The notes beneath the pieces are model-generated. The model worked only from the letters and a program-made list of their open reading frames with translations. It searched no databases and was not told the DNA's origin. Made by a program: the position numbers and the translations under genes. Below, piece after piece: positions 25,911 to 35,606 of a DNA stretch of 64,000 nucleotides. The DNA comes from Alphaproteobacteria bacterium bin52 (GTDB taxonomy: Bacteria > Pseudomonadota > Alphaproteobacteria > Thalassobaculales > Thalassobaculaceae), in assembly GCA_002238645.1 (NCBI GenBank), contig MPMT01000014.1:1-64000 (forward strand), written 5' to 3'. The stretch's first letter is position 1. Every line of letters begins with the position of its first letter.

Positions 25911-26186
25911 CGCGCTCTTCCCTTCTTCCAGGCGACCTTCATGGTCCCTTCCGACACGTCCGGAGTGTAGCATGCGGTCCGGGATCCACGCATCCCGTCT
26001 GCCGCCTGTACACGGGTCATTCCGTGTGTCAGCAGACTGCGAATGCGGGTCCGGCTATTGCTGCCGCAGAGGCGCGCAGCCCCCGGAACTTCCCAATGTT
26101 GTCTCGCGCCGAATGATTGAGTAGGCTCGCGCACTTGCAATTTCGGGCAGCGAGAGGCGTTGCCCGACGTGTCAGGGGAGAAGACC
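25911..26186. promoter_or_regulatory. Divergent promoter region, aroQ operon / TRAP receptor gene
   Basis: A 276-base gap between divergent starts. It must contain the aroQ-operon promoter on the minus strand and the receptor-gene promoter on the plus strand, but no hexamer pair stands out. A ribosome site (AGGGGAG) lies 7 bases before ATG 26187. No other feature was recognised. Confidence 0.3.
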
Positions 26187-27263
26187 ATGAATTCAGCGAC
26201 TATGCTGAAGTCGGTGGCCATCGGCACGGTCGTGGGGGCAGTCGCCTTCGCAGCCGCAGGCGACGCAATGGCCCAAAAGCGCGTAAAGTGGAAAATGCAG
26301 AGTGCCTGGAGTACGCAGGTACCGTATGCCGGTGAATCCGGTGTGCGGTTCGTCGAAGCCATCAACAAGATGTCGGGTGGCAACTTCGCGATCAAGTTCT
26401 TCGATCCGGGCGCGCTGGTTCCGGCGCTCGAGACATTTGACGCCGCGTCGAAGGGTGCGATCGAATCGGCGTGGACCACACCCGGATACCACGCCGGACG
26501 CTACCCAGGCCTGTCGTTCATGACCACGGTGCCGTTCGGCCCCAGCCTGACCGAATTCCTGTCATGGAAGTGGTTCGGTGGCGGCAACGACATTCGTGAC
26601 CGGGTCTATGCCGGGCACGACCTGAAGGCCTTCGACGCCTTCTCGCACGGTCCGGAGACCTCCGGCTGGTTCAAGGAGCCGATCACCAATCTCGATCAGC
26701 TCAAGGGTCTGAAGATGCGTTTCTTCGGCCTCGGCGCCAAGGTCCTGACCAAGATCGGCGTGTCGACCCAGCTTCTTGCCGGTGCCGACATCTACCCGGC
26801 GCTCGAGCGCGGCGTGATTGACGCCACCGAGTACTCGATGCCTGAGAACGACATCAAGTACGGCTTCTACCAGATCGCCAAGAACAACTACTTCCCGGGC
26901 TGGCACCAGCAGTCTTCGGTTTCGGAATTCCTCATGAACAAGACCAAGTTCGAGGCCCTTTCGGAACCCTACCAGGAGATGATCCGCCAGGCGGCCTTCG
27001 CCCAGGTGATCTATACCCATGCGGATGCGGACTCGCAGCAGTTCGTCGCGATGAAGGCGCTGCAGGATGAACATGGCGTGACCATCCACCGCTGGCCCGA
27101 CGAGCACCTGGCCGTGTTCGAAAAGGCATGGCGCGAGGTCATTGAAGAAGAGTCCGCCAAGGACGAGCTCTTCAAGGAGTTCGCCGACAGCTACTTCGCC
27201 TTCCGTCAGGCGTTCAAGCTGTGGGGTGATGCCCAGTCAATGAAGCCGACCTACCTCGACTGA
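26187..27263 (+). CDS. TRAP transporter solute-binding protein (DctP family), orphan
   Basis: A 358-residue periplasmic receptor: a signal peptide (MLKSVAIGTVVGAVAFAAAG, cleaved after DAMA), then the DctP fold with ESGVRFVEAINKMSGGNFAI, MRFFGLGAKVLTKIGVSTQL and the family element LLAGADIYPALERGVIDATE YSMPEND. It resembles the TakP-like 2-oxoacid or mannitol-type TRAP receptors, but the ligand is not certain. No dctQ/dctM genes are adjacent; a hairpin terminator follows, so it is a single-gene unit. It must use membrane subunits encoded elsewhere, or act as a sensor. Confidence 0.9.
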   Translation: MNSATMLKSVAIGTVVGAVAFAAAGDAMAQKRVKWKMQSAWSTQVPYAGESGVRFVEAINKMSGGNFAIKFFDPGALVPALETFDAASKGAIESAWTTPGYHAGRYPGLSFMTTVPFGPSLTEFLSWKWFGGGNDIRDRVYAGHDLKAFDAFSHGPETSGWFKEPITNLDQLKGLKMRFFGLGAKVLTKIGVSTQLLAGADIYPALERGVIDATEYSMPENDIKYGFYQIAKNNYFPGWHQQSSVSEFLMNKTKFEALSEPYQEMIRQAAFAQVIYTHADADSQQFVAMKALQDEHGVTIHRWPDEHLAVFEKAWREVIEEESAKDELFKEFADSYFAFRQAFKLWGDAQSMKPTYLD

Positions 27264-27307
27264 GGACCGTACCTCCGGCTCGCCGGAACGTACGACACTG
27301 CTTCGGA

Positions 27308-27344
27308 GCCCGGACCGCATCTGCGGTCCGGGCTTCCGCTTTTT
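27308..27344 (+). terminator. Rho-independent terminator after the orphan receptor gene
   Basis: A perfect 12-base-pair stem (GCCCGGACCGCA / TGCGGTCCGGGC) with a two-base spacer is followed by TTCCGCTTTTT. It lies 45 bases after the receptor stop and also sits beyond the 3' end of the convergent VOC gene. Confidence 0.9.
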
Positions 27345-27359: not shown

Positions 27360-27914
27360 TCAGCCGAAGACCGGCGCGTTTTCCAGGTCGTCCTCAAGGG
27401 CCTCGGCGCCCTCGGTCGGCAGCACCTTCACGTAGTTGAGTGCCGCCTCGATATCGCCGCCCCACACGGTGCGTGGAAGCTCGTAGAGCAACTCGACCCC
27501 GTAGCCGTTGGGGTCGCGGATGTAGAGGCTGTGTGTCATCCCGTGCTCGACCCTGCGGCCGAACTCCACCCCCTTCTCCTGCAGGAAGGCAAGCTGCTGC
27601 ACGAACGAGTCCCGGTCCGGCAGTGTCACCGCGACATGGTTGACCGCCACCGGCCCGCTGCCGGGCTCGGGCAGTGACGTGTCTTCGACCAGCGCCAGGT
27701 CGTGGTGGTTGTGCCGTCCATCGCGCACACCGCTGTAGAAACGCATTCGCGGGGGATCGGGGCGTTCCGCGGTGGCATGCAACGAGCCGACATGGGCAAA
27801 ACCGAGGATCTCGGTCCAGAACCGGTGCGACTCCTCGAGGTCGCGCACGTTGAGCACCAGATGATTCAGACCGGTGGGCGTTACGGGAGCACCCGGTCGA
27901 CTGTTCTGCGCCAT
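27360..27914 (-). CDS. VOC-family protein (extradiol-dioxygenase/glyoxalase-like)
   Basis: A 184-residue vicinal-oxygen-chelate protein. Two beta-alpha-beta-beta-beta repeats carry likely metal ligands: His in GLNHLVLNVRDLEESHRFW, His in VAVNHVAVTLPD and Glu in NGYGVELLYELP; HNHHDLALVED is also conserved in catechol-2,3-dioxygenase-like members. It may cleave an aromatic diol or isomerise a CoA or thiol adduct; the substrate is unknown. It is the last gene of the five-gene minus-strand operon, 40 bases after the CoA-ligase stop, which points to a step in that pathway. Confidence 0.83.
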   Translation of the reverse strand: MAQNSRPGAPVTPTGLNHLVLNVRDLEESHRFWTEILGFAHVGSLHATAERPDPPRMRFYSGVRDGRHNHHDLALVEDTSLPEPGSGPVAVNHVAVTLPDRDSFVQQLAFLQEKGVEFGRRVEHGMTHSLYIRDPNGYGVELLYELPRTVWGGDIEAALNYVKVLPTEGAEALEDDLENAPVFG

Positions 27915-27954
27915 GATTTCCTCCCGTCAGCAGGTACCGTCGTCGCCGGCTAGG

Positions 27955-29526
27955 CTAGCAGTCGGCAGGTTGCGGCGGCAACCGGCTCCCGGCCCGCCCG
28001 TCCTTGAGCCGCTGCTCCAGCACGTGACGCTGGATCTTGCCCGACACGCTGCGGGGCAGCTGGTCGAGGTCGATGAAGTGCACTTCCTTCGGCAGCTTGT
28101 AGCCCGCGATCCGGCCCCGGCACATGTCGAGCACCGCATCGGTGGTCAGTTCCGGATCGGCGGACGCCGCGAACAGCACCGGCACCTCGCCCCAGCGCGG
28201 ATCGGCGCGGCGCACCACCGCGGCGTCGAGGATCCGCGGGTCGGAGAGCACGTGCCGTTCGATCTCCGCCGGATAGATGTTTTCGCCACCGGACTTGATC
28301 ATGTACTTGACCCGGTCGACGAAATCGAGAAGCCCGTCAGGACGGCGGCGGAAGGCGTCACCCATGTGAAACCAGCCGTCGCGGAACGCCTCTCGGTTGG
28401 CGGCGTCGTTGGCCCAGTACCCCGAGAACAGGCTCGGACCGCGGATCGCGCATTCGCCGGGCTCGCCGTCGGGCACGTCGCACCCATCGGCATCGACCAG
28501 TCTGACCTCGCAGAACCCGCTCTGACGCTTGGGCAGGTCCACCGGGGCCTCGCCGACCGGGATCACGTTCGCCGAAGCGGGCGGCATACCGGTCTCGGTC
28601 GACCCGAAGGTATTGAGATAGGGGGCGTTGAGCAGCGTGGTCACGTCGGCGATCACCGACCTGGGAACCAGGTCCGCCATGGCGCCGACAACACCCACCG
28701 GCTGCGGGCGCACGCCCGATGCCCTGAGCTCGGAGACAAAGTCCTCGACCATTCCCGGGATCGCGATGAGGTAGCTCACCCGGAACCGTTCGATCGCCCG
28801 GATGATCGGACCCGGCTGGTAGCCGTCGACCACGACCACCCGGCCGCCCCGCAGCAAGGTGGCGAGCGCAAAGTCGTTCGCACCCATGTGGAACAGGGGT
28901 GCCCAGGCGACGAAGGTGTCGTTTCTCGGTACCCGCAGCTCGCTGGCGAAGATCAGGGCCCGGCAGAGCATGGCCCGGTGACTGATGACCGCCCCCTTCG
29001 GCAGACCGGTGGTCCCGCTGGTGAAGATGATGACGAGCCCGTCCTCCGGCCCCACCGGAACTGGGGCCGGGGCCGCCCGGACCCGGGCGAGTGCCGCCTC
29101 GTAGTCGGGCCCGATCACCAGGTCGGGGGTGGACCCGGCCGCGCCGAGGGCATCGACGAGGTCCGGACCGGCGACCACGAACCGCGGTCGTGTCAGCTCG
29201 AGACCATGGCGCAGTTCCTCCGTCGAGAACCGCCAGTTCAGGTTGACACTGACCGCCCCGACGGTGGCCGCCGCAAGCTCGGTCTCGAGGTAGGCGGCGC
29301 AATTGCGCGCGAGCAGCGCGACACGCTCGCCATGTCCAACGCCGGCTGACTGCATGACGGCCGCAAGCCGCCCGACCCTGTGCGCCAGCTCGGCATAGGT
29401 CACGGTCCGCCCGCCGTCCACCAATGCCGGCTGCTGCGGGTTGAGCCGTGCGGTCTCGGCAAACTGGCGGCCGACGTCGACGAATCCGGCCCTGAGGATC
29501 GCCGCGTCGGCGCCGGTATCAGTCAT
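27955..29526 (-). CDS. AMP-forming acyl-CoA ligase
   Basis: A 523-residue ANL-family ligase: QFAETARLNPQQPALVDGGR at the start, VIIFTSGTTGLPKGAVISHR as the P-loop, NTFGSTETGMPP, FRDGWFHMGDAFRRRPDGLL, DRVKYMIKSGGENIYPAEIE, and LPRSVSGKIQRHVL with the C-terminal catalytic Lys. It activates an organic acid as its CoA thioester. Its start overlaps the stop of the cyclase gene by 8 bases, so it belongs to the thiolase-like/DUF35-SDR/cyclase/ligase/VOC operon. The substrate is probably the entry acid or an intermediate of that pathway. Confidence 0.88.
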   Translation of the reverse strand: MTDTGADAAILRAGFVDVGRQFAETARLNPQQPALVDGGRTVTYAELAHRVGRLAAVMQSAGVGHGERVALLARNCAAYLETELAAATVGAVSVNLNWRFSTEELRHGLELTRPRFVVAGPDLVDALGAAGSTPDLVIGPDYEAALARVRAAPAPVPVGPEDGLVIIFTSGTTGLPKGAVISHRAMLCRALIFASELRVPRNDTFVAWAPLFHMGANDFALATLLRGGRVVVVDGYQPGPIIRAIERFRVSYLIAIPGMVEDFVSELRASGVRPQPVGVVGAMADLVPRSVIADVTTLLNAPYLNTFGSTETGMPPASANVIPVGEAPVDLPKRQSGFCEVRLVDADGCDVPDGEPGECAIRGPSLFSGYWANDAANREAFRDGWFHMGDAFRRRPDGLLDFVDRVKYMIKSGGENIYPAEIERHVLSDPRILDAAVVRRADPRWGEVPVLFAASADPELTTDAVLDMCRGRIAGYKLPKEVHFIDLDQLPRSVSGKIQRHVLEQRLKDGRAGSRLPPQPADC

Positions 29527-30328
29527 CGGCCTGCTCCTCCACCAGAGCCAGTGCCCGCAGGGGACTGCCCGATCCCTGGCGGATCTTCAGCGGCGCGGTG
29601 ATCAGCAACGTGCCGTGGGGCGGCAGCTGGTCCAGGTTGCACAGTCCCGGCAGTCCGAACCGGTTGTTGCCGTGCATGTGGTGGTGACAGGGGAACGGGA
29701 TCGGAAAATGCGGCGCCTGGCCGGCGTCGGTTCCCACCGCCTCGGAGCCGAACCCGATCACGTCGCGTTTGGAAATCAGCCAGGGAATGAGGTCGGGATG
29801 CGGTCCCGGCGTATTGGCTCCCTCGTCTCCCATGTTGAGAAACGCCTCCGGATCGGTCCTGAGCGACCAGTCGGTGCGCATCAGCAGCCAGGACCGGGGC
29901 GGGATCCGACCATGGATCTCCTCCCATGCCTCGACCCGGTCCACGGTCAGAAGGTAGTCGGGGTCGGCAAGCGCATCGCGTGAACAGTCGATGACCGCGG
30001 CCGCGGCGACGAACTTCACCGGCGGAATGGTATCGGTGGTGTTGTCGGGCAGGTCGCGCCCGGAGATCCAGTGCACGGGCGCGTCGAAATGCGTCCCAGT
30101 GTGCTCGCCGCAGGAGAAGTTGTTCCAGTAGGTCGCCGGTCCGCGCCGGTCGTACCGCGAGATCTCCTCGATGCGGAACGGCCAGGTCTGGCCCAGTTCC
30201 GGGGGCAGTACGATGGTCGGCGTACGCTGGTCCAGCGTCACCGTGAGATCCACGATCCGGATTCGTCCCGACAGGATCCCCTCCAGCAGCCGTGCCAGAA
30301 TCCCTGCCTCGCCGGTGCGACTGTCCAT
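29519..30328 (-). CDS. Cyclase-family metal-dependent hydrolase
   Basis: A 269-residue protein of the Cyclase/kynurenine-formamidase superfamily. The metal-binding motif is in CGEHTGTHFDAPVHW (HxGTHxDxPxH). Further blocks are WLLMRTDWSLR, DVIGFGSEAVGTDAGQAPHF and HHHMHGNNRFGLPGLCNLDQ LPPHGTLLI. Members hydrolyse formamides, ring amides, lactones or isatin-like bonds with Mn/Zn. It lies 30 bases after the DUF35-SDR gene and overlaps the CoA ligase, so a ring-opening step in the same pathway is a reasonable inference. Confidence 0.87.
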   Translation of the reverse strand: MDSRTGEAGILARLLEGILSGRIRIVDLTVTLDQRTPTIVLPPELGQTWPFRIEEISRYDRRGPATYWNNFSCGEHTGTHFDAPVHWISGRDLPDNTTDTIPPVKFVAAAAVIDCSRDALADPDYLLTVDRVEAWEEIHGRIPPRSWLLMRTDWSLRTDPEAFLNMGDEGANTPGPHPDLIPWLISKRDVIGFGSEAVGTDAGQAPHFPIPFPCHHHMHGNNRFGLPGLCNLDQLPPHGTLLITAPLKIRQGSGSPLRALALVEEQADD

Positions 30329-30358
30329 GGGGTCTCCCTGCCCGCGACCGGTCTCCGC

Positions 30359-31630
30359 CTACAGGCGGATGGACCGTTCGATCTCCTTCGGGTTCTCGGC
30401 AAGCCGGTGCGTGATCTCCTCGGCGACAGCTCCCACCGCAATGTCCTCGAGCCCGCGCTCAAGCCCGCGCACCACCCGGATAGCAACGGTCGCGGGATCA
30501 AGCTTCGGAGGCGGTACCAGCTGATGCCACTCGTCATCAAGCGGACCGGTGAACACGTTCACCACCCGCACGCCTCCCGCCGCCAGTTCCGCCCGCATGC
30601 AGTGCGACAGCGAGAGTGCTGCCGCCTGCGACGCGCTGTAGGTCCCCAGTTCGGGGTTGTTGACCAGCGACCAGGCCGAGAACAGGTTGACCCACGCCAC
30701 CGCACCGTAGGGCCCGTCGGCGCCGCGAGCGCGCATCACCGGACCGAAGTAGCCGGCAAGCCTCAGTAGCCCGTGGTAGTGGATCTCCATCTCCTGGCGG
30801 GTGATGTTGAAGTCGAGCCGGTCGAGTGCACCACCCATGCGCACATGGGAACTGTTGTTGATCAGGATCTCCACCTTGTCGCCGATGAGCGCGGCGAGCT
30901 TCTCGACCGCATCGGTATCGGTCACGTCGAGCGGGTAGACCGATACCCTATCCCGGCCGCGCAACGCCGCGAGATCCGGGCTCCGGTTCCACGGGCGAGA
31001 GAACCCGGCGAACACCTCGCGGGCACCGGATGCGAGGAAGGCCTCGACAAGATGGCGACCCAGACCGGTGGTGCCGTCGACCACCAGGACCCGGCGTCCC
31101 CGGGGGTCGAACACCATCTCGCGCAACCGCGGGTCATCACGGGACGCGTCCCGCTCCGGGCTGGCTGCAACCACCGCGTTGCCGGCACGGTCGAGGTGCA
31201 GGGCAAGTCTCACCCTGTGGCCCCTCTCGCACCCTTCGGCCAGGTGCGCCACGATGGACGGGCCTGCATCCGAACCGACCAGTCCAAGCTTCCACGGCAA
31301 CCGCTCCCGGAAGTAAAGGTCGTTGGCGTGGCGCACCGTGGTCTGGGCGAGCACCCGGCCACCGTCGGCCACGTCACGCCACTCCAGCTCGCCGTCGAGG
31401 CAGCGCTCGCACAGCTGGCGCGGCGGGTAGTGCACATGTCCGCAGCGCCGGCAGCACTGCAGCGCAAAGCGGCCGGCAGCAGCCATTGCCGCAAGTCCGT
31501 GCGCCTCGCGCGACCGGTTGCCCGGCGGTGTGACCGGAAGCCGGGTGCGCCGGGTCGGATCCTTGCGCCGGGGCGGTCCTGCCGGGCCGGTCAAGCCCCG
31601 CTCCGGCCCAGGATCGCGGCGGAACTGCAC
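30359..31630 (-). CDS. DUF35 zinc-ribbon/OB-fold protein fused to a short-chain dehydrogenase
   Basis: A 423-residue fusion. Residues about 50-165 form a DUF35 domain: a zinc ribbon C60-C63-C74-C77 (CRRCGHVHYPPRQLCERC), then an OB fold. Residues about 178-423 form an SDR domain with VLVVDGTTGLGRHLVEAF as the cofactor loop, ILINNSSH for the usual NNAG, Ser318 and Tyr331. The Lys of YxxxK is Gln335 (YSASQAA), so SDR catalysis is doubtful or altered. DUF35 proteins normally partner thiolase-like enzymes, and the upstream gene is one. The ATG at 31630 overlaps that gene by 40 bases; a TTG at 31594, overlapping its stop as TTGA, is an alternative start. Confidence 0.85.
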   Translation of the reverse strand: MQFRRDPGPERGLTGPAGPPRRKDPTRRTRLPVTPPGNRSREAHGLAAMAAAGRFALQCCRRCGHVHYPPRQLCERCLDGELEWRDVADGGRVLAQTTVRHANDLYFRERLPWKLGLVGSDAGPSIVAHLAEGCERGHRVRLALHLDRAGNAVVAASPERDASRDDPRLREMVFDPRGRRVLVVDGTTGLGRHLVEAFLASGAREVFAGFSRPWNRSPDLAALRGRDRVSVYPLDVTDTDAVEKLAALIGDKVEILINNSSHVRMGGALDRLDFNITRQEMEIHYHGLLRLAGYFGPVMRARGADGPYGAVAWVNLFSAWSLVNNPELGTYSASQAAALSLSHCMRAELAAGGVRVVNVFTGPLDDEWHQLVPPPKLDPATVAIRVVRGLERGLEDIAVGAVAEEITHRLAENPKEIERSIRL

Positions 31631-32790
31631 AGCCCGCGATCATATGTGATCATTCCGAAACACGAGACGAGCCCGTGGCGAGCGCCCTCGACCGCCGCAC
31701 CCAGCACCTCGTCGGTCAGCTGGCGGAGGGTTTCAACCAGCCCAAGGAACCCGCCGGCGGCGCCGGCCTGGCCAGCCGAGAGCTGACCGCCGCAGGTATT
31801 GAACGGGAAATCTCCCGCCGTGGTCAGGTCGCGTTCACGCACCAGCCCCGGTGCCTCTCCCCTGGCACAGAAACCGAGATCCTCGAGCTGCATGAAGCAG
31901 ATCACCGGATAGTCGTCGTAGGCCTGCACCAGGTCCATGTCCCCGGGGCCCAACCCGGCCATGTCATAGAACGAGTCGATCTCCCGCGCCCAGCCGCCGC
32001 GGACCTGGATCGGATCATCCGGAAAGGCGTTGTGACGTTCCATGGTCGACAGGATCGCGGCATGCGGCAGGCCCAGTGCTTGAGCCCGCTCGGTGCTCAT
32101 CACCAGGAAGGCCTCGGCGCCGGCGCACGGCATCACGCAGTCGAACAGGCGCAGCGGGTCGGCAATCAGCCTTGCCGTCAGGTACGCCTCCATGGTGAGC
32201 GGACGCTTGAGCATCGCGTGCGGCAGGGCGGCCGCGTTCCGTCTCTGCGCGATGCACAACCTGCCGAAGTCCTCGCGCACGGCGCCGTGGCTGTGCATGT
32301 AGTGGTCGGTCAGGAAGGCGAAGCTCGCATTGGGACCTCCGGAGCCATAGGGGTAGACCGCATCGTTGGCGAACTGGCTGAAGGTCGCGATGGTACGCCT
32401 GAAGCTGTCGACGTGGTTGGTATCGGCACCGATGCAGGCGACGATCTCCGCGTCACCCGCCTGGACCGCGCGCGCAGCGCGGCGCAGCGCCACTGCCCCG
32501 CTCGCCCCGCCCATCGGCACATGGTCGAGCCAGCGCGGAGAAACGCCGAGATGCTGCATCAGCCCGACGGCGCTGTCGGGCTCCAGCGTGAAGCTCGAAA
32601 TGCAGAACCCGTCCACCTCGTCCTTGCCGATACCGGCCCGTGCCAGCAGCCCGGCGAGGGCCTGACCACAGAACCAGTGGGCGCTCCGGATGGAGTAGCG
32701 CCGGTAGGGAACCGTCATCGGCGCGCAGACCGCGACACCGTCGTAGCCGGCGCGCGCTGCCGTCCCCCCGGGCGGGCGGGTGCCGGACAT
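31591..32790 (-). CDS. Thiolase-like protein (SCP2/Ltp2 type) lacking the catalytic Cys
   Basis: A 399-residue thiolase-fold protein, first gene of the operon. Where true thiolases have the nucleophile (GCASG) it has GGASG near residue 95, and where they have GHPxGATG it has GQAGAAGG near 342. Other blocks are ALAGLLARAGIGKDEVDGFC, YDDYPVICFMQLEDLGFC and NTCGGQLSAGQAG. Loss of Cys and His with a DUF35 partner is the situation in Ltp2-type aldolases of steroid side-chain breakdown, where the enzyme performs a retro-aldol cleavage of a CoA ester. An aldolase or carrier role is therefore inferred here; thiolysis is unlikely. Confidence 0.85.
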   Translation of the reverse strand: MSGTRPPGGTAARAGYDGVAVCAPMTVPYRRYSIRSAHWFCGQALAGLLARAGIGKDEVDGFCISSFTLEPDSAVGLMQHLGVSPRWLDHVPMGGASGAVALRRAARAVQAGDAEIVACIGADTNHVDSFRRTIATFSQFANDAVYPYGSGGPNASFAFLTDHYMHSHGAVREDFGRLCIAQRRNAAALPHAMLKRPLTMEAYLTARLIADPLRLFDCVMPCAGAEAFLVMSTERAQALGLPHAAILSTMERHNAFPDDPIQVRGGWAREIDSFYDMAGLGPGDMDLVQAYDDYPVICFMQLEDLGFCARGEAPGLVRERDLTTAGDFPFNTCGGQLSAGQAGAAGGFLGLVETLRQLTDEVLGAAVEGARHGLVSCFGMITYDRGLCSSAAILGRSGA

Positions 32791-32973: not shown

Positions 32974-34341
32974 ATGAAACTGGAACGGCTGGACTGGCGG
33001 GTGGTGCTGGCGCTCGCCACCGTCTCGATGCTGTTGCAGCAGGCGTTCTCCTACGTCTGCCAGCTGGCGATGCCCTTCCTCGCCGACAGGCTGGCCGAGG
33101 AGTTCGAAATCTCGCGCGCCTGGCTCGGCGTCTACCTGTCGCTGCAGAACATCGCCGCCATCTGCGCAGCACTCGGCTGCGGAGCCCTGATCGTGAAGGT
33201 CGGCGCACTCAGGATCAGCCAGTGGTGCCTGTTGTGCATGGGAGCGAGCCTCTTCGTCACCGCCACCGGCGCGCTGTGGCTGTACCCGCTGGGCGCGATC
33301 CTGCTCGGCGCCGCCTCGGTCTCGACGCCCGCCAGTTCCCACATCCTCGCGCGGTTCTGCCCGCCGCGGCTCGCGCCGCTGGTGTTTTCGATCAAGCAGA
33401 CCGGTGTCCCGGTGGGCAGCCTGATCGCCGGCGTACTCATCCCGGCCCTGCTCGGGCTCGGTATCACCGTCGCGTTTCTCGACCTTCATGTCGAGCTCGA
33501 TGCCTTCGCGACCGCGTTCGTGGTCGGCCTCATCGTCTACGCCATGGCGGCGTTGCTGGAACCGCTGCGGTCCCACTTCGATTCCGACCGCAAGCCGGAC
33601 ACCGGAATCAACCTGGCCGGGGTGCTGCGGACGATGCGGTATGTGGTCCAGACGCCGGAACTGCGTGACCTGTCGATGGTCGCCTTCGCGCTCGGCGGCC
33701 TGCAGTCGGTCTGGGCCGGCTTCTTCATCCTGTTCGTGATCGATGGTCTCGACCGGAGCGAGATCGAGGCCGGTACCATGTTCGCGACCGCGAGTCTGAC
33801 CGCGATCGGCGCCCGCATTCTGTGGGGTTGGCTCGGAACCGCGCTGGTCTCTCCGCGGCGCATCCTGGCGGCACTGTGTGCCATCGCAACGGCGGCGGCA
33901 CTTCTGACCGCGCTGTACCAGCCGGACTGGGCAGCTTGGCTGATACTCGGTGTCGCCATTCTCTACAACGTCACGTCGCTCAGCTGGCACGGTGTGCTGC
34001 TGGCGGAAACCGCCCGGCTCGCACCCGCCGGCATGGTCGGCGGCGTTACCGGCGGTGTGCTCGCATTCACGTCGGTCGCGATGATGCTCTACCCCGCGTT
34101 CTACGGCGGACTGCTTGCACTTACCGGCTCCTACGGCGTCGGGTTCGCCGCCGCCGTGCTTCCGGCGCTGTTTATCGCCTTCGTGCTCGCACTGCCGCCC
34201 CGCCAGGGTTCATGGTTCGACCTGATCGCCTGGCCCGGCCTCGTCAGGTTGCGCCGGCCGCGTGCGGCGGCGTTCGGGACCATCCTGCTCGCCGCCGCGG
34301 CCCTGCTCGCCCTGTTCGCACTCCTGTCCACTCAGTCGTAG
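32974..34341 (+). CDS. Major facilitator superfamily transporter
   Basis: A 455-residue inner-membrane protein with about 12 hydrophobic helices. Visible are FLADRLAEEFEISRAWLGVY, PASSHILARFCPPRLAPLVF and SIKQTGVPVGSLIAGVLIPA (helix 4/5 region typical of the CynX/NNP-like and uncharacterised alphaproteobacterial MFS groups), a central loop SHFDSDRKPDTG, and a second six-helix half. The substrate is unknown. It is divergent from the five-gene operon and could import its substrate; its 3' end overlaps the PaaK-like gene by 10 bases. Confidence 0.86.
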   Translation: MKLERLDWRVVLALATVSMLLQQAFSYVCQLAMPFLADRLAEEFEISRAWLGVYLSLQNIAAICAALGCGALIVKVGALRISQWCLLCMGASLFVTATGALWLYPLGAILLGAASVSTPASSHILARFCPPRLAPLVFSIKQTGVPVGSLIAGVLIPALLGLGITVAFLDLHVELDAFATAFVVGLIVYAMAALLEPLRSHFDSDRKPDTGINLAGVLRTMRYVVQTPELRDLSMVAFALGGLQSVWAGFFILFVIDGLDRSEIEAGTMFATASLTAIGARILWGWLGTALVSPRRILAALCAIATAAALLTALYQPDWAAWLILGVAILYNVTSLSWHGVLLAETARLAPAGMVGGVTGGVLAFTSVAMMLYPAFYGGLLALTGSYGVGFAAAVLPALFIAFVLALPPRQGSWFDLIAWPGLVRLRRPRAAAFGTILLAAAALLALFALLSTQS

Positions 34342-35573
34342 CTGCGGGCGTCCTCGATCACCTTGCCGTCGTTGGCAAGGCTGCCGGCGGCCCCGAACGC
34401 CACGTCACCGCGCAGCTTGGTCACCGACTGGATCGACTGGCGAACCGCGTCGGCAAGGGCCTCGCCCGCACCGTCCGAGACCTCGGCATGCAGGGTCATG
34501 ACGTCGCGGCCCGTTCCGCCGCTGACGACAAGGCGCGCCCGCGCAATCTCGGGATGGCGCTTCACGATCTCGGCGACCTGGCCCGGATGAACGAACATGC
34601 CGCGGATCTTGGTGGTCTGGTCAGCCCGGCCCAACCAGCCCCTGATCCGCAGGTTGGTTCGGCCGCACGGGCTGGCGCCCTGCATGATCGCCGACATGTC
34701 ACCAGTCGCGAACCGGACCAGCGGATAGGAGGGGTTGAGCGTGGTCACCACCACCTCTCCCACTTCGCCGGGCGAAACCGGGTCGCCGGTACCGGGCCTG
34801 ACAATCTCGACCACGACGCCCTCGTCGATGACCATGCCCTCCACCGCCGGGGTCTCGTAGGCGACGAGCCCGAGGTCGGCGGTGCCGTAGCACTGCAGGA
34901 CGGAGCAGCCAAGGTCGGCGAGTTCGGACCTGAGGCTGAGCGGCAGGGCTTCGCCGCCCACCAGTCCGCAGGACAGCGACGAGGCATCAACCCCCAGTTC
35001 GACGGCCTTCTCGAGGATGATCCGCAGGAAGCTCGGGGTGCCGGCGTAGCGGTTGGGACGCAGGTGTCCGATGGCCTGCACCTGGATCTCGGTATTGCCG
35101 ATCCCGCCGGGGAACACGGCGCAGCCGATTGCCCGGCAGGCCGTGTCCACCATCATGCCGGCCGGTGTCAGGTGATAGGAGAAGGTGTTGTGGACAATGT
35201 CGCCACGGCGAATACCCGCGGCGTGGGCGGCGCGGGCAAACCGCCAGGGATCGGCCTCCGGCCCCTCACCTTCGTAGATCGGCCCCGGCGACATGTAGAT
35301 GCGGGAAAAAGCACCCGGCTCGAGCGCGCCGAGCCCGCCGAACGGCGGGTCGGACGCCTGCATGCCGAGCAGCTCGGACTTGCGCATCACCGGCAGGCCG
35401 GCAAGGTCGGCGGACGAGCGGATCGATGACGCGTCCACATCACCGAGCAGCCGGGCCAATGCCACGGTGCTCGCCTGGGCGTGGGCAACCTGGCGCGGGA
35501 GCGCCTCGGCCAGGTCCCGTTCCCTCTCGTCGGCGCTGCGGATTTCAAGATCGTCGTAGAACTCGCCTGACAT
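34332..35573 (-). CDS. Phenylacetate-CoA-ligase-like protein (PaaK family)
   Basis: A 413-residue adenylate-forming enzyme of the PaaK type: LPVMRKSELLGMQASDPPFG, FSYHLTPAGMMVDTACRAIG, YAGTPSFLRIILEKA, SCGLVGGEALPLSLRSELAD, VLQCYGTADLGLVAYE, and the C-terminal LRIRGWLGRADQTTKIRGMF VHPGQV. The nucleotide-binding loop reads RIYMSPGPIYEGEG rather than the usual SSGTTG-type motif, as in some PaaK relatives. It is predicted to activate an aromatic or aliphatic acid with CoA; the substrate is unknown. ATG 35573 (MSGEFYDD) has GAGAGAA before it. It is convergent with the MFS gene, and a cyclophilin gene lies upstream on the same strand. Confidence 0.83.
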   Translation of the reverse strand: MSGEFYDDLEIRSADERERDLAEALPRQVAHAQASTVALARLLGDVDASSIRSSADLAGLPVMRKSELLGMQASDPPFGGLGALEPGAFSRIYMSPGPIYEGEGPEADPWRFARAAHAAGIRRGDIVHNTFSYHLTPAGMMVDTACRAIGCAVFPGGIGNTEIQVQAIGHLRPNRYAGTPSFLRIILEKAVELGVDASSLSCGLVGGEALPLSLRSELADLGCSVLQCYGTADLGLVAYETPAVEGMVIDEGVVVEIVRPGTGDPVSPGEVGEVVVTTLNPSYPLVRFATGDMSAIMQGASPCGRTNLRIRGWLGRADQTTKIRGMFVHPGQVAEIVKRHPEIARARLVVSGGTGRDVMTLHAEVSDGAGEALADAVRQSIQSVTKLRGDVAFGAAGSLANDGKVIEDARSYD

Positions 35574-35606
35574 GTCGGTTCTCTCCCGTCGTCGCAACGC
35601 CCGCCG

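Follow-up and report, generated by a model that had tools for sequence, protein, structure and literature searches.

An alphaproteobacterial operon related to auxin degradation points to a probable branch of the IadG-IadH-IadI family with another cyclic substrate

We analysed an operon of five genes in a 64,000-nucleotide stretch of the genome of Alphaproteobacteria bacterium bin52 (contig MPMT01000014.1, positions 1 to 64,000; hereafter the window). Three of its proteins, a thiolase-fold protein, a DUF35-SDR fusion and a cyclase, are homologues of IadG, IadH and IadI, and their genes follow the order of the iad auxin-degradation locus. On balance we think it probable that the operon represents one branch of this IadG-IadH-IadI family, with a substrate-specific ligase and a related cyclic substrate not derived from isatin. 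Judged by its sequence, the window is not an iad locus, because IadD and IadA are absent, the ligase is not orthologous, the cyclase pocket is changed and the operon belongs to a separate clade. The G-H-I core itself has already been described in iad. The main results are the defined clade, the finding that IadG/H/I alone do not imply auxin degradation, and the predictions that the family contains a retro-aldolase and that its SDR domain is not a dehydrogenase.

An earlier, sequence-only reading of the window had recognised no described pathway with this combination of genes. This was mostly wrong, since iadG-iadH-iadI match three of the genes, order included, and also adjoin a ligase gene. 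Nevertheless, the match to this characterised pathway is not gene for gene: the ligase and the cyclase pocket differ, and the genome lacks orthologues of IadD and IadA.

Relation to the iad locus

The DUF35-SDR fusion was searched for in a single scan that covered 84,980 species genomes and yielded 23 loci with it. In one set of loci, which we call window-type, the genes for thiolase, DUF35-SDR, cyclase and ligase follow one another as in the window, with 57–82% identity outside the window's genus and about 97% in the same-genus copy (a few window-type contigs stop before the ligase gene). Each of the five genes of the window has a ratio of nonsynonymous to synonymous substitution rates (dN/dS) of 0.07–0.13 against the same-genus copy, which indicates purifying selection. 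Because the order recurs across the clade and dN/dS is low, the gene set is not a product of chance. Of the five-gene order first proposed for the operon, a four-gene unit is conserved across the clade, while the VOC gene is linked to it in the window's genus only.

In a concatenated tree of the thiolase, DUF35-SDR and cyclase proteins, the window-type loci form a single clade (support 100). Its stem is long (0.47), and it lies within a set of branches made up of iad loci and stand-alone modules. The members are metagenome-assembled genomes of Rhodospirillales type, all with the same changed cyclase pocket. Isolate names such as Arabian, ANT, TMED23, casp150, BS30m and SI072 hint at the sea; read from these names and not from sample records, they suggest that several members are of marine source.

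In a second set of loci the three shared genes are part of a longer cluster, together with two indolepyruvate-oxidoreductase-like genes, a pair of Rieske oxygenase genes, a ligase gene and an SDR gene. This set is the iad auxin-degradation locus. The order C-D-E-F-G-H-I-J is exact in Ruegeria pomeroyi DSS-3, Sulfitobacter and Roseibium aggregatum (formerly Labrenzia aggregata, the species from which isatin hydrolase comes), and G-H-I stand as in the window. The first oxidation has been assigned to IadCDE, activation with coenzyme A (CoA) to IadF and removal of the side chain to IadG, while IadH has been called an "alcohol dehydrogenase" and IadI a formamidase-like amidase (Jiang et al. 2025, PMC12633357). 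Variovorax strains deleted for F, G, H or I pile up C10H9NO4, dioxindole-3-acetic acid (DOAA), so that by genetics these four act between DOAA and isatinate (PMC12633357). IadA and IadB are indolepyruvate-oxidoreductase-like, isatin and isatinate are intermediates, and R. pomeroyi is one of the degrading strains tested (PMC9613470).

With the iad loci of Variovorax paradoxus CL14, Bradyrhizobium, R. pomeroyi DSS-3 and R. aggregatum, the window shares the G-H-I order, an adjoining ligase and the catalytic residues of G, at 42–69% identity depending on the protein. Unlike them, it has no adjacent IadC/D/E, IadJ or IadA/B, its ligase belongs to another group and lies at the opposite end of the operon, its cyclase has lost the isatin-hydrolase signature, and a VOC gene has been added. 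In the window genome, whose stated completeness is 97%, the best match to IadD reaches only 31% identity (E 1.8e-35), compared with 46–90% in iad-type loci, and no Rieske oxygenase of the IadDE/IadC kind lies beside the operon. For IadA, a generic match of 28% is all that was found in this genome and in the same-genus genome G001; IadB was not searched separately. A separate SDR gene of the IadJ type is not found beside the operon, the rest of the genome not having been tested. Nor does the operon contain an IadF-type ligase: its ligase is 57–66% identical to those of the same clade and about 30% to IadF. In the ligase tree the window type and IadF are separate groups, and the ligases of the Azospirillum and Neorhizobium modules described below fall into a third.

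Unlinked IadA copies were present in 10/10 window-type genomes tested outside the window's genus. Most window-type genomes (L062, L064, L066, L067, L068 and L075), though not those of the window's genus, have unlinked IadA/IadB-like pairs, with IadA at 50–59% identity. We rejected unlinked IadA as a marker of the clade, since it also occurs in 41/289 genomes of the class and is not specific. A Rieske homologue of 37–41% identity in many window-type genomes was set aside as well: it is missing from the window's genus and unlinked in the neighbourhood read (L070).

The three shared proteins

The thiolase-fold protein shares 59–69% identity with IadG-type proteins, both those from iad loci and those from stand-alone modules. 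The hallmarks of a classical thiolase, the nucleophilic cysteine and the histidine of GHP, were looked for in the alignment of the window protein and are absent. No aligned member of the family has a conserved nucleophilic cysteine, GQA occupies the position of the catalytic histidine and YDDYP is present in every member; further motifs of the window protein are GGASG and GGQLSAGQ. Because of YDDYP, the missing cysteine and the replaced histidine, retro-aldol cleavage of a tertiary beta-hydroxyacyl-CoA is the likely reaction, more so than thiolysis. Ltp2, which is among the best structure-database matches (Table 1), and Sal are steroid aldolases with DUF35 partners; they lack the thiolase nucleophile and use the tyrosine of YDHF (in Ltp2) or YDCY (in Sal) as base (PMC12329534, from which we also took the motif definitions). 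The window protein has the same features: a tyrosine in YDxx, no nucleophilic cysteine, the thiolase fold and a zinc-ribbon DUF35 partner, here in place of ChsH2 or Shy. It differs in reading YDDY, in a DUF35 partner that is fused to an SDR fold where the Ltp2 and Sal systems have a MaoC hydratase domain, and in its expected substrate, which would be small and cyclic.

The DUF35-SDR fusion is 42–50% identical to iad-type and stand-alone IadH proteins, and the four zinc cysteines of its DUF35 part are conserved. Its predicted structure (predicted local distance difference test score, pLDDT, of 77) has a plain SDR fold with 5u4s as nearest match. The classical dehydrogenase motifs YxxxK and TGxxxGxG are not intact in the window, where they read YSASQ and VDGTTGLG; SASQ stands where 5u4s has SASK, so that the catalytic lysine has become glutamine. 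The same holds for the family: nearly all aligned fusions lack the lysine and, in the cofactor motif, the first glycine, and no fusion retains both motifs intact, those of iad loci included (L050, L051, L053, L038–L041). These residues make it improbable that the SDR domain acts as a dehydrogenase; it would be non-catalytic, structural or ligand-binding. Since the motifs are degenerate across the family, the annotation of IadH as an alcohol dehydrogenase is doubtful.

The cyclase is 52–62% identical to iad-type and stand-alone IadI proteins, and its matches to solved isatin hydrolases range from E 4.8e-102 (5nmp) to 9.8e-82. With LaIHA, LaIHB and RsIHA (PDB 5nna, 4j0n and 5nmp) it shares full-length homology, the metal motif HxGTHxDxPxH and the catalytic histidine and aspartate of proton transfer. 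Isatin hydrolases are further marked by an aromatic WxW or FxW pocket and by GLQC or GLAS (PMC6117287). Neither signature is found here. The pocket reads TYW in the window and [T/C/I]YW in all window-type loci, and the second motif reads GLPG and GLP[A/G], respectively. Wherever iad-type cyclases could be read at these sites, they show WxW together with GLQC; in one stand-alone group GLQC is combined with AYW or PYW. The changed pocket suggests that the window cyclase opens a ring other than isatin. We rejected a KynB-type arylformamidase as an identity for this protein, the match to the arylformamidase model (E 1.4e-4) being far below that to isatin hydrolase.

Stand-alone G-H-I modules without IadDE occur on plasmids of Shinella (L046), Azospirillum thermophilum (L048) and Neorhizobium (L052), and also at L077, L078 and L084. 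Like the window, the three plasmid modules combine the G-H-I core with an adjoining ligase of their own, IadF-like in Shinella and of another group in the other two. Unlike the window, their cyclases retain WxW and GLQC, and their ligases belong to other groups than the window's. On a Caballeronia plasmid (pSBC1_4, L049), genes for an Asp/Glu racemase and a carbon-nitrogen hydrolase as well as gentisate-type genes lie close to a GLQC cyclase; thiolase and DUF35 genes are absent there.

Proposed route and alternatives

Both the reactions and the class of substrate are our inference from what the sequences show: how the genes are ordered, their homology and residues, the phylogeny, and a genome that lacks IadD and IadA orthologues. 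The ligase would convert a carboxylic acid to its CoA thioester. The thiolase-fold protein, held or shaped by the DUF35 part, would then cleave a tertiary beta-hydroxyacyl-CoA by retro-aldol reaction: the tyrosine of YDDY would deprotonate the hydroxyl, acetyl-CoA (or propionyl-CoA) would be released and a ring ketone beside a carbonyl would be left. The Mn-type cyclase would hydrolyse the adjoining ring bond to give an open-chain 2-oxo acid, with the SDR domain in a structural or ligand-binding role. In iad loci the substrate is DOAA, which is converted to isatin and on to isatinate; retro-aldol cleavage of DOAA-CoA would, by this reasoning, yield isatin and acetyl-CoA directly. For the window, the changed pocket, the different ligase and the missing IadD and IadA orthologues argue for a substrate that is probably shaped like DOAA but not derived from isatin. 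Much of this had been anticipated by the sequence-only reading, whose acid activation, thiolase-fold aldolase with DUF35 partner and ring opening by the cyclase are well supported by homology and residues.

Several points weigh against this proposal. The main argument against a non-catalytic SDR domain comes from the preprint of Jiang et al., which gives IadH a reductive role and reports C8H7NO2, a compound at the level of dioxindole (isatin plus two hydrogens), downstream of F-G-H (PMC12633357); such a product implies that a reduction takes place somewhere and is easier to reconcile with a working reductase than with an inactive one. Isatin hydrolases also tolerate variation of the pocket (IHB has FxW and GLAS), and isatin or a substituted isatin is a possible substrate. 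As to the aldolase, the known catalytic acids are not matched, the position of Sal Cys304 being Asp and that of Ltp2 Tyr344 apparently Gln (by eye, from the alignment), and the aspartate of YDDY is a putative acid. The enzyme activities across the window-type clade are predictions from sequence, and the formation of the beta-hydroxy acid, by an oxygenase or a hydratase, has no assigned gene.

What might the substrate be? Outside the window's genus, nearly every window-type locus has, immediately upstream of the thiolase gene, a gene for a 260-amino-acid protein similar to Asp/Glu racemases (PF01177). It was found in nearly all window-type genomes and in none of the five iad-type genomes that were taken from the same scan and searched. 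Among 289 genomes sampled across the class it occurs in seven, namely 6/6 of the G-H-I-positive genomes and 1/283 of the others, a count that is suggestive and no strict test because the six represent three genera only, one of which gave near-identical relatives of the query. HyuA/HyuB genes adjoin two loci (L030 and L035), and a third (L029) is flanked by HyuA, two isochorismatase-type amidases and a TRAP transporter. Such neighbours may indicate an acid with a cyclic amide or imide, imported by a TRAP system, although they are not conserved across loci.

One could therefore narrow our proposal to cyclic imides or hydantoin-like acids, with the racemase-like protein, HyuA/HyuB, the amidases and the TRAP transporter all in the same route. 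We regard this narrower form, which overlaps with the proposal above, as conceivable but rather doubtful. The HyuA/B and amidase neighbours occur in few loci only, and, on inspection by eye, the pair of catalytic cysteines usual in hydantoin racemases seems to be missing from the racemase-like proteins. The only racemase-like copy in the window genome is unlinked and 47% identical (contig C108, L069:8025-8849); in the same-genus genome G001 none was detected. When the neighbourhoods of unlinked racemase-like genes were compared, no shared genes were found. The racemase-like proteins (L069:8025-8849 and L034:6036-6818) track non-iad G-H-I modules.

A bolder version of our proposal, which we offer tentatively, is a separate Rhodospirillales-type route that degrades an acid with a cyclic amide or imide, such as one derived from tetrapyrroles or histidine, and into which the module was recruited together with a new ligase and a racemase-fold protein. 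The SDR domain would then be non-catalytic throughout the family, IadH included, and the auxin pathway would cleave DOAA-CoA directly to isatin by a retro-aldol step.

Alternatively, the operon could be the lower half of auxin degradation, in which DOAA is imported, or made by an unrelated oxygenase, and converted to isatin and isatinate. The homology and co-linearity of G, H and I with iad and the metal and proton-transfer residues kept by the cyclase are consistent with this, as is the presence of DOAA in media controls, possibly through abiotic decay of auxin (PMC9613470). We nevertheless think it unlikely: no member of the clade retains either isatin signature, whereas every iad-type member has GLQC; the ligase is of another type than IadF; and the genome lacks the IadA homologue that one would expect to act on isatinate.

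Thiolytic beta-oxidation of a fatty, steroid or terpenoid acid, with the SDR domain as 3-hydroxyacyl-CoA dehydrogenase and a true thiolase, would suit the generic family names, the adjacency of thiolase and SDR and the similarity to Ltp2, but is very improbable given the missing thiolase Cys and His, the SDR active site degenerate family-wide, a cyclase closest to isatin hydrolase and an operon without enoyl-CoA hydratase or acyl-CoA dehydrogenase. The steroid and terpenoid forms of this idea we rejected on the residues and on the cyclase's closest relatives, and the homology of the ring hydrolase to isatin hydrolase speaks against the steroid and terpenoid acids once named as candidate substrates.

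Our proposal of a branch with its own substrate has consequences for the annotation of auxin degraders. The auxin-degrading module turns out to belong to a larger family of enzymes, which recombines with ligases of different groups. Hence IadG/H/I alone are insufficient to call an auxin degrader; IadDE and the pocket motifs of the cyclase should be asked for as well. An unsettled step of the auxin pathway also becomes testable, as removal of the side chain is likely a retro-aldol reaction of the YDDY aldolase and its DUF35 partner. Finally, the window-type clade points to an unrecognised substrate that is possibly common in the sea.

Operon layout and neighbouring genes

The coordinates and spacing first read from the letters, five minus-strand genes with overlaps or gaps of at most 40 bases, are borne out by the open reading frames, and Pfam agrees with the labels thiolase-like, DUF35-SDR, cyclase, ligase and VOC. 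All five frames are open and run as in Table 1, save that the fusion frame can be read up to 31630 (30359-31630). The resulting 40-base overlap with the thiolase gene stems from choosing the most upstream GTG. Because the fusion gene of relatives (e.g., L029) begins at a TTG that overlaps the thiolase stop, the start is likely the TTG at 31594, which would give a 4-base overlap and a product of 411 amino acids. The cyclase and ligase genes overlap by 8 bases; the remaining gaps are 30 and 40 bases.

Table 1. Genes of the operon and the divergent transporter gene, in window coordinates.
Feature	Coordinates	Strand	Evidence
IadG homologue, thiolase-fold, putative retro-aldolase	31591..32790	-	Pfam Thiolase_C_1; PDB 9myr and 6ok1 (Ltp2) best matches; YDDYP motif
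IadH homologue, DUF35 (zinc ribbon and OB) fused to SDR-fold domain	30359..31594	-	Pfam zf-ChsH2, OB_ChsH2_C, adh_short
IadI / isatin-hydrolase homologue, cyclase family	29519..30328	-	Pfam Cyclase PF04199; phmmer to 5nmp; motif table
AMP-forming acyl-CoA ligase, group other than IadF	27955..29526	-	Pfam AMP-binding, AMP-binding_C
VOC/glyoxalase-fold protein, operon add-on in the window's genus only	27360..27914	-	Pfam Glyoxalase
Divergent MFS transporter	32974..34341	+	Pfam MFS_1; 93% identity, L021 (same genus) only

The VOC protein is 97% identical in the same genus (L021); homologues of 55–75% identity elsewhere are not linked to the operon, and co-occurrence with the operon across genomes is weak. 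It has conserved His, Tyr and Glu residues and matches an extradiol dioxygenase signature, but the profile search found only generic glyoxalase-like chains and the structure model has a pLDDT of 37, so that it is at most a candidate extradiol dioxygenase. With linkage confined to the genus, the ring or bond chemistry once ascribed to the VOC protein is unsupported, and so is the idea that the MFS transporter supplies the substrate, this neighbour too being conserved within the genus only. VOC homologues in other genomes (L094, L095 and L097) often adjoin a small RidA-like gene, and the two are possibly a conserved pair.

Just past the MFS gene, at 34332-35597 on the minus strand, lies a gene for a 421-amino-acid PaaK-type (phenylacetate-CoA-ligase-like) ligase that is conserved in the same genus. 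At the other end, at 26160-27263, is a TRAP-type solute-binding protein; no DctQ or DctM genes were seen in the stretch read around it. A strong terminator-like hairpin (27305-27336) follows this gene.

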